Source of the DNA: Chloroflexota bacterium
GTDB lineage: Bacteria; Chloroflexota; Limnocylindria; QHBO01
Direction: 5' to 3'
Assembly (NCBI GenBank): GCA_003243965.1
Contig: QHBO01000016.1
Coordinates: 195,076 to 259,075 of the forward strand
DNA: 64,000 nucleotides
The position numbers were made by a program, and so were the translations under genes. A model generated the notes under the pieces. That model was not told the origin of the DNA, ran no database searches, and saw nothing but the letters and a program-made list of their open reading frames with translations. This document shows, piece after piece, positions 52,059 to 57,261 of this stretch. The stretch's first letter is position 1. The number at the start of each line of letters is the position of its first letter.

Positions 52059-52745
52059 TTACTCGGGGTGGAGGGGAAGCCTCAGGATCAGCGCCAGCGC
52101 CGGCCGCTCGCGAACGCGCGGCGTGATCGGCGCGCGAAGCCAGGACTCCCCCGCTTCGCCGGCCCGGTAACGGGCATCGAGCCGCCGGGCGCTCAGCCCA
52201 TCGATGCCGAGGGCGGCCAGCGCGTCGGCCACCAGGTGTCCCTCGCCGGGATAACCGCGGCCCACGATCGCGCGGCCCGCACCCGGCAGGACCTCCCCGA
52301 GCTCACGGCGCCGCGCCGCGAACGAGCGGCGCGTCCAGGATCGTCCCGCCGACCACAGCAGGTCGCTGGCGACGTAGGCCGGCGCTCCGCCGCGCCGGGC
52401 GCCGGAGAGGCGCGCCCGAAGAAGCTCCGGATCCGGACGGCCGGAGGCATCGAGGACCACCAGCCAGCCGTCGAGCACCACGCCGTCCTCCCGCAGCTCG
52501 GCGGTGATCGCCGCCAGCTCGGGGAACGCGGCGAGCGCATCGGCCAGCCCGCTGACCTGCATCCGGAGACGGCCGTGCTCCGCGAACACGATCGCCCGGA
52601 TTCCGGGCCACCACGGCTCGAACAGATAGCCGGCATCGTCGAACGGCTCGTCGACCGCCACCGGCTGCATCGGTGAGATGCGTGACGGCAGTCGCCGGGG
52701 CGAGCCGCCACCGGGGATCGTGAGCGGGAGCTGCTCCGGCTCCAC
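52059..52745 (-). CDS. ATP-dependent DNA ligase-like protein lacking the catalytic lysine (predicted inactive)
   Basis: Resembles the LigD-type adenylation domain (FEPWWPGIRAIVFAEHGRLRMQVSGLADALAAFPELAAI...VVLDGWLVVLDASGRPDPELLRARL), but the expected EPKxDG reads EPWWPG and LDGE reads LDGW; adjacent to Ku. Confidence 0.7.
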   Translation of the reverse strand: MEPEQLPLTIPGGGSPRRLPSRISPMQPVAVDEPFDDAGYLFEPWWPGIRAIVFAEHGRLRMQVSGLADALAAFPELAAITAELREDGVVLDGWLVVLDASGRPDPELLRARLSGARRGGAPAYVASDLLWSAGRSWTRRSFAARRRELGEVLPGAGRAIVGRGYPGEGHLVADALAALGIDGLSARRLDARYRAGEAGESWLRAPITPRVRERPALALILRLPLHPE

Positions 52746-52754
52746 GCCCCGCAG

Positions 52755-53648
52755 CTAGGCGGTCTTGCGGCGGCGCTGGGGGCGCGGAGCCTCGGCCACC
52801 TCGGCCACCTCGGCCACCTCGGCCACCTGTGGCTCGGTCGCGACCTCCTCGGCGCCCGCTTCGCGACGCGCCTCGCGCGCGGCTGCCACCGAGGCCTCCA
52901 GGGCCGCCATCAGGTCGCCGATCTGGGTCGGCTCGACGCGGTGGATCGGCTCGGGCGCTTCCCCCGCGACCTTGGCCTCGATGACCGCCATCAACGCCTG
53001 GCGGTAGTCGTCGCGATAGGCATCGGCGCTGAAGTCGCCGGTCATGCTCGCCACAAGCTGCTCTGCCATTGCCACTTCGCCCGGCTTGAACTGGATCTCC
53101 TCCTCGGGAAGCGCCAGCTCCTCGATCGACCGCACCTCATCGGGCCAGTGAAGGGTGGTGAGCAGCATGGTGCTGCTGAACGGGTTGAGCGCGGCGAGCT
53201 GTTCCCGGTCCTTCAGCACGATCTTGCAGATCGCGGTCTTTCCCTCATCGGCAAGGACGCGCTTGAGCAGGTAGAACGCCTTGCGACCGATGCTCTCCGG
53301 CTCCAGGTAGTACGCCTGCTTGACGAACTGCGCGCCGTGCGCTTCCCGGCGCGCATCGACGAAGAGCTCGATCTCGATCGCGCGCAGCGTGGCCAGCGGA
53401 ATCTGGTCGACGTCCTCCTCGGTGACCACCACGTAGCGACCCTTGGCGTACTCGTAGCCGCGCACCGTCTCCGAGCGCGGCACGACCTCGTCGTGGTACG
53501 GGCAGTAGATCTTCATCTGGATCCGGTTCAGACAGGTCGCGTGGAGCATGTTGAAGCCGATCCCGCCCTGCTCGGTCGCGAGGTAGAGCTTGACCGGGAT
53601 CGTCACCAGACCGAACTGGATCGCCCCTCGCCACATCGATCGCGCCAT
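52755..53648 (-). CDS. ku: Non-homologous end joining protein Ku
   Basis: MARSMWRGAIQFGLVTIPVKLYLATEQGGIGFNMLH...VPRSETVRGYEYAKGRYVVVTEEDVDQ...GRKAFYLLKRVLADEGKTAICKIVLKDREQL. Confidence 0.97.
   Translation of the reverse strand: MARSMWRGAIQFGLVTIPVKLYLATEQGGIGFNMLHATCLNRIQMKIYCPYHDEVVPRSETVRGYEYAKGRYVVVTEEDVDQIPLATLRAIEIELFVDARREAHGAQFVKQAYYLEPESIGRKAFYLLKRVLADEGKTAICKIVLKDREQLAALNPFSSTMLLTTLHWPDEVRSIEELALPEEEIQFKPGEVAMAEQLVASMTGDFSADAYRDDYRQALMAVIEAKVAGEAPEPIHRVEPTQIGDLMAALEASVAAAREARREAGAEEVATEPQVAEVAEVAEVAEAPRPQRRRKTA
52791..52826. repeat. 9-bp tandem repeat (ctcggccac x4) in the Ku C-terminal coding region
   Basis: Four exact copies; encodes the (VAE)n stretch VAEVAEVAEVAEA before the basic tail RPQRRRKTA. 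Confidence 0.9.
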
Positions 53649-53817
53649 GGTCCTTTGCCTTCCTCGAGCTGTCGGGCGGTGACTATACATCGGCCCCGCA
53701 AGCGGGCCCGATGGCCACCGATGGGCGCCAACGGCCGCCGATGTGCGCTACAGGTACCAGCCTCGACAGGCCATGCGGCCATTGTTCGGCTCGTGGCGGT
53801 ACGAGAGACTCCGCCGC

Positions 53818-54766: not shown

Positions 54767-55522
54767 ATGCGCGTGATCCGGGTCGCGGCCGCCCGCGCCA
54801 CTCCCGCCGCTCGGGTACGCCGCGGCAGCGTGTGGCTTGCGATCCTCGTTCTGCCGTCCGCCACGCTCGCATTGGTCGTCGCCACCCCGCCTGCCTGGCG
54901 ACCGCTGGGCGGAGTGGCGCTGGCGGTGGGGCTCACCGTTGCGGTCGCGCTGCTGGTCAACGAGCTGCGGGAGCGTGGACGCCCCAACCGGGACGTCGAG
55001 CGCCTTCTGGCACCGATATTCGGCGAAGAGTACGTGCTCATCGTCGGCCTCCACGTACCGGCGACGCGCGGCGAGCTGGCGGCGCTCCTGGTCGGGCCGG
55101 CCGGTGTCCGCGCGCTGCTGGCTCGGCGCTGGGAACATCGGTTCCGGGTCCGGGGCCGCGCCTGGGAGGTCGGAGCCGAGCAGGGATGGGTGCCGTTCGC
55201 GGAGAATCCGTCGTTCGATGCGCTCGCCCTCCGCGAGGCGGTCGAGCAGTGGATCGCCGTGACCTCAGGCGAACCGGGCATTCCGATCGCCGCCACCATC
55301 GTCTTCCCGCGCGCCGGAAGCCGGGTCATCCTCCAGGAGCCGGACGTCGAGATCGTGACCCGCGACAACGCCCCGTGGTGGGCGCAGCGCATCGGCCGTG
55401 TGCAACGGCTCGACGCCTTCCGCGCGACACGCCTGGTCGACGCGCTGCTGACCGCCGCTCGGCCCGACGCCCGCGCTCGGTTGCCACGCCAGGGCGAGGC
55501 GGTCGCCCCGCCCCGAGGCTAG
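54767..55522 (+). CDS. Membrane protein with possible degenerate nuclease-related (NERD-like) domain
   Basis: Two N-terminal TM segments, then EEYVLIVGLHVPATRGELAALLVGPAGVRALLARRWEHRFRVRGRAWEV; NERD assignment is tentative. Confidence 0.5.
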   Translation: MRVIRVAAARATPAARVRRGSVWLAILVLPSATLALVVATPPAWRPLGGVALAVGLTVAVALLVNELRERGRPNRDVERLLAPIFGEEYVLIVGLHVPATRGELAALLVGPAGVRALLARRWEHRFRVRGRAWEVGAEQGWVPFAENPSFDALALREAVEQWIAVTSGEPGIPIAATIVFPRAGSRVILQEPDVEIVTRDNAPWWAQRIGRVQRLDAFRATRLVDALLTAARPDARARLPRQGEAVAPPRG

Positions 55523-57261
55523 CCCTCCTCGGCGACGCCGGTCGCCGCGATCCGCTCGGTGGTGCCGCCGGCGCCGGTGGCAAGCAGGATCCGGCCGCTC
55601 GCCTGGGCCACGTACAGCGACTCGGCGCTCGCCAGGGTGTCGATCTCGGCCGGCGTCTTGTCGGTGCGGATGCGCATGATCCTCGGAAAGCGCAGCGCAA
55701 AGCCGGACCGATGCCGACCGCTGCGATGAATGCGGTCGAACGCGATCTCTACGACCACCTCTGGCACCACGGTCCGGTAGCGACCGAAGTCACGGAGCGT
55801 GATCGAGGTGAATCGAGCGGTCATCTCGGCGATCTCGGCATCGGTCAGCCCGGTGTAGGCCTTGCCGATGGTCAGCAGCCGGTCGTCGTCTTCGCCGGCC
55901 CGAACGGCGAACGTGTAATCGGAGAGCACACCACGCCGCTTCCCGTGCCCCCACTCGACGCCGACCACCACACAGTCGAGGGTCGCCAGCGCTCGCTTCA
56001 GCTTCAACCATCCAAGCCCGCGACGTCCGGGCTGGTATGCGGAGCCCGGGTCCTTGACCATCAGCCCCTCGTTACGCCGTTGTCGCGCGTCGTCGAACGC
56101 CACGTCGATCTGGTCCGCACCGCGGGCCGTGGCCAGGTGCGAGTAGAGCACCCGCTCACCGGTACGCTCCGGTAGCCGCAGCGCCTCGAGCGCAGCCCGC
56201 CGCTCTCGCAGCGGGAGGTCGAGCAGATCGCTGCCGTCCAGGTGGAGCAGGTCGAACGCCACCAGCGCCACCGGCACGCGCTCCAGCAGCTCCGGATCCG
56301 GCCGCACCCGCCCGAGGCGCGTCTGCAGGCTCGCGAAGTCGAGCATCGCACCTTCACGGAAGGGGACCAGCTCGCCGTCGAGGACCATCTGCCCGGGGAG
56401 CGTCGCAAAGGCGGAGGCAACCTCCGGGAATGAGACGGTGACGTCCTTGAGGTCGCGGCTGAAGAGGCATGGCGCCAGGTCGGGGCCAACATGCAGCTGG
56501 GCGCGAATTCCGTCGTACTTGTCCTCGATCCAGGCCTCCTCGCCGACACGGCGCACCACGTCGTCCGCATCCGCGACCGGCGTCGCCAACATGCAGCGCA
56601 GCGGCCGCCCGAGGCGCAACGCGGCCTCGCCGAGCCGATCGTCCGCGGCCAGCAGGGCGACCTCGCCCGGCTCACCGATCAGCGTCAGCGCCCGCCCCAC
56701 CGCGGCCGGGTCGTGGCCAAACGCCGCCGCGATCGCCTCTTCCAGGATCCCCTCGCGCAGCCCGATACGCAGCTCGCGCGCCGCGATGCGGCCGATGTAG
56801 CGCGCTTCGGCGGGGCCGACGCGCTCGAACAGGCAGCGCAGCAGACCCACTCGCCCCTCCCCGGACGAGGCCTCCGCGATCCGGCGGAACACCGCCTCGA
56901 CACCGGCCAGCGTCGCCACATCATCGGCGACCGTCCGCTCGTCGCCGATGTGCAACCGGGTCGCGAGCAACTCCGCTGCGACATCGCCGAAGTCGGAGTG
57001 GCGCAGGTACGCCTCGTGCATCGCCTCCTCGCTCGCCCCGGAAGCGGCGCCGAGCGCGGCAGACTGCTGGACCCAGCCGAGCCCCAGCCGGTCGGCGGCA
57101 CCAGGGAGCGGACGTCCCGCAAAGAAGGTCGCGGCGCGCGGGACATCGGGCGTCTCGAGCTCGCGGAGGTAGGCCGCCAGCAGGTCACGTTTGCGGAGCC
57201 TGGATCTGGTGGCGGCGACGGCGTCGGCCGTCCGCGCGAACGCTGCAAAGGGCGACGACAT
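55519..57261 (-). CDS. lig: ATP-dependent DNA ligase
   Basis: Catalytic KxDG in EAWIEDKYDGIRAQLH, MVLDGELVPF, FDLLHLDGSDLLD, EGLMVKDPGSAYQPGRRGLGWLKLKR. Confidence 0.96.
   Translation of the reverse strand: MSSPFAAFARTADAVAATRSRLRKRDLLAAYLRELETPDVPRAATFFAGRPLPGAADRLGLGWVQQSAALGAASGASEEAMHEAYLRHSDFGDVAAELLATRLHIGDERTVADDVATLAGVEAVFRRIAEASSGEGRVGLLRCLFERVGPAEARYIGRIAARELRIGLREGILEEAIAAAFGHDPAAVGRALTLIGEPGEVALLAADDRLGEAALRLGRPLRCMLATPVADADDVVRRVGEEAWIEDKYDGIRAQLHVGPDLAPCLFSRDLKDVTVSFPEVASAFATLPGQMVLDGELVPFREGAMLDFASLQTRLGRVRPDPELLERVPVALVAFDLLHLDGSDLLDLPLRERRAALEALRLPERTGERVLYSHLATARGADQIDVAFDDARQRRNEGLMVKDPGSAYQPGRRGLGWLKLKRALATLDCVVVGVEWGHGKRRGVLSDYTFAVRAGEDDDRLLTIGKAYTGLTDAEIAEMTARFTSITLRDFGRYRTVVPEVVVEIAFDRIHRSGRHRSGFALRFPRIMRIRTDKTPAEIDTLASAESLYVAQASGRILLATGAGGTTERIAATGVAEEG

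Follow-up and report, generated by a model that had tools for sequence, protein, structure and literature searches.

NHEJ in bacteria has been described as the work of two proteins, Ku and LigD. Its ligases are well known, and pseudoenzymes are common. The Ku core, together with a minimal C-terminus, contacts the ligase domain of LigD (PMC13201618), and a catalytically inactive Lig4 is still able to promote end joining as well as the activity of Lig3 (PMC9638927). A search of literature that took in a minor part of the subscription papers retrieved no natural pseudo-ligase linked to Ku or NHEJ in bacteria.

The gene described here lies in a stretch of 64,000 nucleotides of a Chloroflexota genome (contig QHBO01000016.1; hereafter, the window). 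Its product, named PL1, starts 9 nt past the Ku stop codon and its frame is open throughout, as held by an initial annotation that had placed an intact gene directly downstream of Ku. The same annotation had seen in the 228 residues a likeness to the nucleotidyltransferase (NTase) domain of LigD and ATP-dependent ligases. Judged on the sequence, this likeness is far beyond chance, both in profile searches (TIGR02779, E 1.5e-21; PRK09632, 5e-27) and in a sequence search against Mycobacterium tuberculosis LigD (1vs0, E 2.4e-18), whereas the Pfam profile that the annotation had named, DNA_ligase_A_M (PF01068), scores 24.2 bits and stays slightly under its 26.2-bit cut-off.

Alignment to M. tuberculosis LigD sets W45 of PL1 against the catalytic lysine, P47 against the aspartate of motif I and W94 against the glutamate of motif III. 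These are the losses that had been proposed from the codons GAG CCG TGG TGG CCC GGA and CTC GAC GGC TGG CTG, which are as read. The degeneration extends further than had been recognised: the lysines of motifs IV and V are gone and the OB fold is missing, only about 24 residues following motif V, with no match to PF04679 in Pfam and no such domain in the predicted model. Furthermore, PL1 of the window is entirely devoid of lysine, which makes the formation of a lysyl-AMP impossible, and classical catalysis by PL1, as far as its sequence indicates, is not possible. PE and POL domains are absent as well, PL1 being a single NTase domain, unlike LigD. The absence of lysine was considered as a special signal of PL1 and rejected, since the genome is lysine-poor overall (1.2%); of the window's genes as crudely called, 8 of 50 are lysine-free. 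The features of the locus are collected in the table.

Table. Features of the Ku-PL1 locus, in window coordinates.
Feature	Position	Strand	Remarks
PL1, pseudo-ligase of 228 aa, NTase domain only, no OB fold	52059..52745	minus	GTG start
Degenerate motif I, W45-W-P-G48, replacing K-W-D-G	52602..52613	minus	Catalytic K->W, D->P; alignment to M. tuberculosis LigD
Degenerate motif III, L91-D-G-W94, replacing LDGE	52464..52475	minus	Alignment
Degenerate motif IV, S185-A-R187	52185..52193	minus	Catalytic K->R; alignment
Degenerate motif V, W202-L-R204	52134..52142	minus	K->R; alignment
N-terminal tail motif, Q5-L-P-L-T-I10	52716..52733	minus	Unstructured in model; resembles clamp-binding peptide (hypothesis)
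C-terminal tail, R214-PALALILRLP-L225	52071..52106	minus	Homologous to post-OB tail of the sister-family Ku-operon ligase
Ku	52755..53690 (ORF as listed)	minus	TIGR02772, 260 bits; likely start ATG at 53648, ORF residue 15
ATP-dependent DNA ligase, 580 aa, intact	55519..57261	minus	Neighbour of Ku-PL1 in many family members as well; PL1 is not derived from it

The 580-aa ligase, taken as apparently intact in the initial annotation, carries the Pfam ligase N, M and C domains together with EDKYDG and LDGE. A 251-aa ORF without Pfam match adjoins it (window 54767-55522, plus strand). The window genome also has a LigD, encoded on contig C17 by a gene of its own (894 aa) with intact PE, LIG, OB and POL domains, and sealing thus has no need of PL1. 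A second Ku gene (L167; G000:C12:15424-16176) has ABC-transporter-like genes beside it, with no ligase seen adjoining.

An AlphaFold2 model built from 74 diverse relatives (pLDDT 92.3, pTM 0.85) presents a nucleotidyltransferase fold in residues 20-208, flanked by extended tails (residues 1-17 and 208-228). It superseded a poor model from 20 close sequences (pLDDT 66.6), for which Foldseek already gave DNA ligases. With the final model, the best Foldseek matches are again DNA ligases (E 3e-14), LigD, Lig1, Lig3 and Lig4 among them, and every one of the best 50 PDB entries listed is a DNA ligase or a complex containing one. The idea that the N-terminal motif could be a strand of the fold was discarded, as no such strand appears in the model.

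PL1 is the name coined here for proteins defined by a WWPG motif I, a C-terminal RPxLALIxRLPL tail, a Ku gene directly upstream and monophyly, all of which are found in the window protein. Orthologues exist in 19 of the 22 genomes of its family, and scanning a single genome for each GTDB species yielded 35 loci, nearly all from Chloroflexi/Chloroflexota metagenome-assembled genomes. Among the matches listed, from 399 genomes of the phylum, none of the type of PL1 or of the related PL2 described below fell outside the class. The loss of the active site affects every homologue: the motif I lysine is W and the aspartate P in 37/37 sequences, the motif III glutamate is replaced in 37/37 by T, W, V or I, and across the same 37 the lysine of motif IV gives way to R or H and that of motif V to R. 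No KxDG occurs elsewhere in any member of the clade. Lysine is absent from 27 of 33 proteins, including that of the window, and each remaining one has a single, unconserved lysine; a migrated catalytic lysine was rejected on these grounds, no lysine being conserved.

In 33 of 36 loci, the gene immediately upstream of PL1, on the same strand, is Ku, at a median distance of 10 nt. Of the three exceptions, two are cut by contig ends (L081, L090), and the third (L094) is genuine, Ku being absent within 6 kb. Another family (g19) includes two genomes where Ku, PL1 and LigD follow one another in a single gene run, LigD there retaining KWDG. Conservation of gene order and tails spans several genera and no fewer than two families, and the frames are open in nearly all loci. 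Pairwise dN/dS is 0.07-0.35 for PL1, compared with 0.12-0.20 for Ku (pairs in which both were measurable). PL1 is therefore under purifying selection and is not decaying, which argues for a retained function. One relative (L100/L112) has its PL1 copy spread over two reading frames, the frameshift being either real or an assembly error. PADLOC gave no match for PL1, which speaks against a role in anti-phage defence, and a tblastn search for a phage or plasmid origin gave none either. Altogether, these data show a clade of conserved Ku-operon pseudo-ligases that spans several families within a single class of Chloroflexota.

Where such a protein comes from is suggested by the sister families f4 and f5 of the class. 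There, an intact ligase of about 360 aa, named LigK here, stands directly behind Ku in 20/20 loci (in 3 of the 20, it was visible just in part or as a longer open frame). In loci with a complete frame, LigK has KWDG, LDGE, EGIVAKR and DWLK as well as an OB domain. It ends in the tail [ER]RPRLxVLxSLPF, which aligns with the C-terminus of PL1 and comes after the OB domain, absent from PL1. This tail motif occurs in 33/35 PL1, 25/29 PL2 and 18/18 LigK sequences, compared with 71 of 41,500 shuffled tails. In the tree, PL1 (100/100), PL2 (100/98) and LigK (100/99, a mislabelled row, L182, counted with it) are each recovered as clades, and the three together stand apart from LigD and LigC with a support of 95/93; the grouping of PL1 with PL2 is weak (77/48), so that catalysis may have been lost once or twice. 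A derivation of PL1 from the 580-aa ligase of the window was ruled out by the trees. The comparison strongly supports an origin of PL1 at this very position, from a standalone and still intact ligase of the LigK kind directly behind Ku, and the simplest history is best read as that of a Ku-operon ligase which would have shed catalysis and OB domain, keeping fold, tails and position. The motif VI region of LigK (L169-L188) reads RFDG or RLDG compared with the usual RxDK, so that the step-1 activity of LigK itself may be atypical.

Two further clades of pseudo-ligases deserve mention. PL2, a sister clade (30 sequences), is found in other genera than PL1 and away from Ku, and two of its genomes (G025, G026) are ones in which no Ku was found. 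It has lost the motif I lysine in 30/30 and has G for the aspartate in 29/30; the motif III glutamate is retained in 28/30 and the motif IV lysine is R in 30/30. It mostly lies next to genes that we take, from reading their sequences, to be S9-peptidase-like and ABC-transporter genes. PL3, of about 230 aa (L149-L166), lacks the motif I lysine in 17/17 and keeps that of motif IV in 17/17. It is present in most genomes of the window's family, with no known link to Ku; the copy of the window genome lies on the same contig, outside the window (G000:C16:279135-279707).

Taken as a whole, PL1 is probably an accessory of NHEJ without catalysis of its own, docked on Ku, with ligation left to the intact LigD of the genome. 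Its NTase body would bind Ku in the manner of the LigD ligase domain, its tails would hold a further partner, and LigD would seal the ends. From the analogy with LigD, we infer that PL1 binds Ku. The accessory or regulatory role without catalysis that the initial annotation had considered plausible is supported by these comparisons as a probable one; of the findings that it had named as refuting, neither an intact KxDG elsewhere in homologues nor a lack of structural match to nucleotidyltransferases was obtained. The locus without Ku and the position of PL2 away from Ku indicate that the partnership is not obligatory for the fold. The operon position of PL1 may be partly inherited from LigK. 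Gene linkage in bacteria is no proof of function.

The direction in which such an accessory would act is a separate question. A ligase-domain mimic sitting on the LigD docking surface of Ku could restrain end joining until another factor removes it. PL1 has the fold of the LigD ligase domain, which is the very part touched by the Ku core and minimal C-terminus (PMC13201618), and its gene stands directly behind that of Ku, so that the amounts of both proteins could match. Nevertheless, a positive scaffold fits these facts equally, and a single gene run containing both PL1 and LigD, as in the g19 genomes, would be odd for a pure inhibitor, and we consider antagonism unlikely. An accessory of Ku is thus the favoured reading, sequence evidence being unable to tell promotion of joining from its restraint.

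The N-terminal tail raises the matter of a further partner. Residues 5-10 of PL1 read QLPLTI, and a motif QLxLx[LIVF] occurs in 29/29 PL2, 23/35 PL1 and 0/18 LigK sequences, compared with 1.4-2.8% of shuffled tails; it thus appears together with the loss of catalysis. Most PL2 proteins (L107-L111, L113-L123, L127-L141) begin M-x-D-Q-L-S-L-x-L. The published clamp-binding consensus is QL[S/D]LF, and the QLSLPL of Hda is a tight binder (PMC12309361); DinB of the window genome has QLTLF. PL1 resembles these in having a short Q-L-x-L-x-hydrophobic peptide in a flexible tail and differs from them in that the glutamine is not present in all its members. It is possible, with some doubt, that this tail tethers the PL1 complex to the DNA sliding clamp; since a third of the PL1 sequences are without the full motif (they have PLPLxF, MLPLEF or none), the tether is put forward as a hypothesis. 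That PL1 would be mainly an adaptor of the sliding clamp, attaching to DnaN through its N-terminal peptide and recruiting Ku, or some other partner, to ends associated with replication, the linkage to Ku being a historical leftover, could draw on the same distribution, on the published consensus, on the DinB peptide and on the unstructured state of the tail. However, this is quite improbable: the motif is incompletely represented in PL1, and LigK has a hydrophobic PTLIxV at the same place, which may represent an older docking segment for something else.

A neofunctionalised enzyme, in which the pocket was rebuilt around WWPG for another reaction, must also be considered. Indeed, WWPG, E43, D128 and the R145-R146 pair are invariant, and invariant substituted residues can signal new chemistry. 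Nevertheless, the lysines and acidic residues of nucleotide transfer are gone with no conserved lysine replacing them, and E43, D128 and the arginine pair are shared by intact LigK and are probably structural; this path is accordingly very improbable. Finally, a functionless, decaying ligase remnant, which the loss of the catalytic residues and OB domain and the frameshifted relative could evoke, is rejected as scarcely credible, being contradicted by the selection test (dN/dS 0.07-0.35), the open frames, the invariant new residues and the conserved tails and gene order.

Returning to the accessory of Ku, a pseudo-ligase that is selectively kept and linked to Ku throughout a clade suggests an accessory subunit in bacterial NHEJ. 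More tentatively, although as a serious possibility, PL1 might be a third core NHEJ component in this class, that is, a natural pseudo-ligase that would serve as a scaffold on Ku, perhaps as its link to the sliding clamp, with LigD ligating. If this were true, it would parallel in bacteria the part that Lig4 and its cofactors play without catalysis. The case is strong as evolution and anatomy and moderate as mechanism. Furthermore, the path from an enzyme to a non-catalytic partner can be traced here, the ancestor-type gene still being found in the same slot in sister families, and PL1 offers a direct test of whether an inactive ligase body helps or restrains end joining in bacteria.

Among known systems, the ligase domain of LigD and the standalone LigC (TIGR02779) share with PL1 the NTase fold, the order of segments and the linkage to Ku, whereas PL1, with its 228 aa, is without the catalytic lysine, the motif III glutamate, the lysines of motifs IV and V and the OB fold. 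LigK has in common with it the operon slot, the C-terminal tail (RPRLxVLxSLPF in LigK) and the tree grouping, but keeps KWDG, LDGE, EGIVAKR, DWLK and the OB fold, none of which PL1 keeps. The non-catalytic factors XRCC4, XLF and PAXX have a fold other than that of PL1. With these three, and with inactive human Lig4, PL1 would share the principle of an inactive ligase body or scaffold that promotes end joining (PMC9638927); inactive Lig4, however, is an engineered mutant, whereas PL1 is a natural, clade-wide pseudoenzyme.
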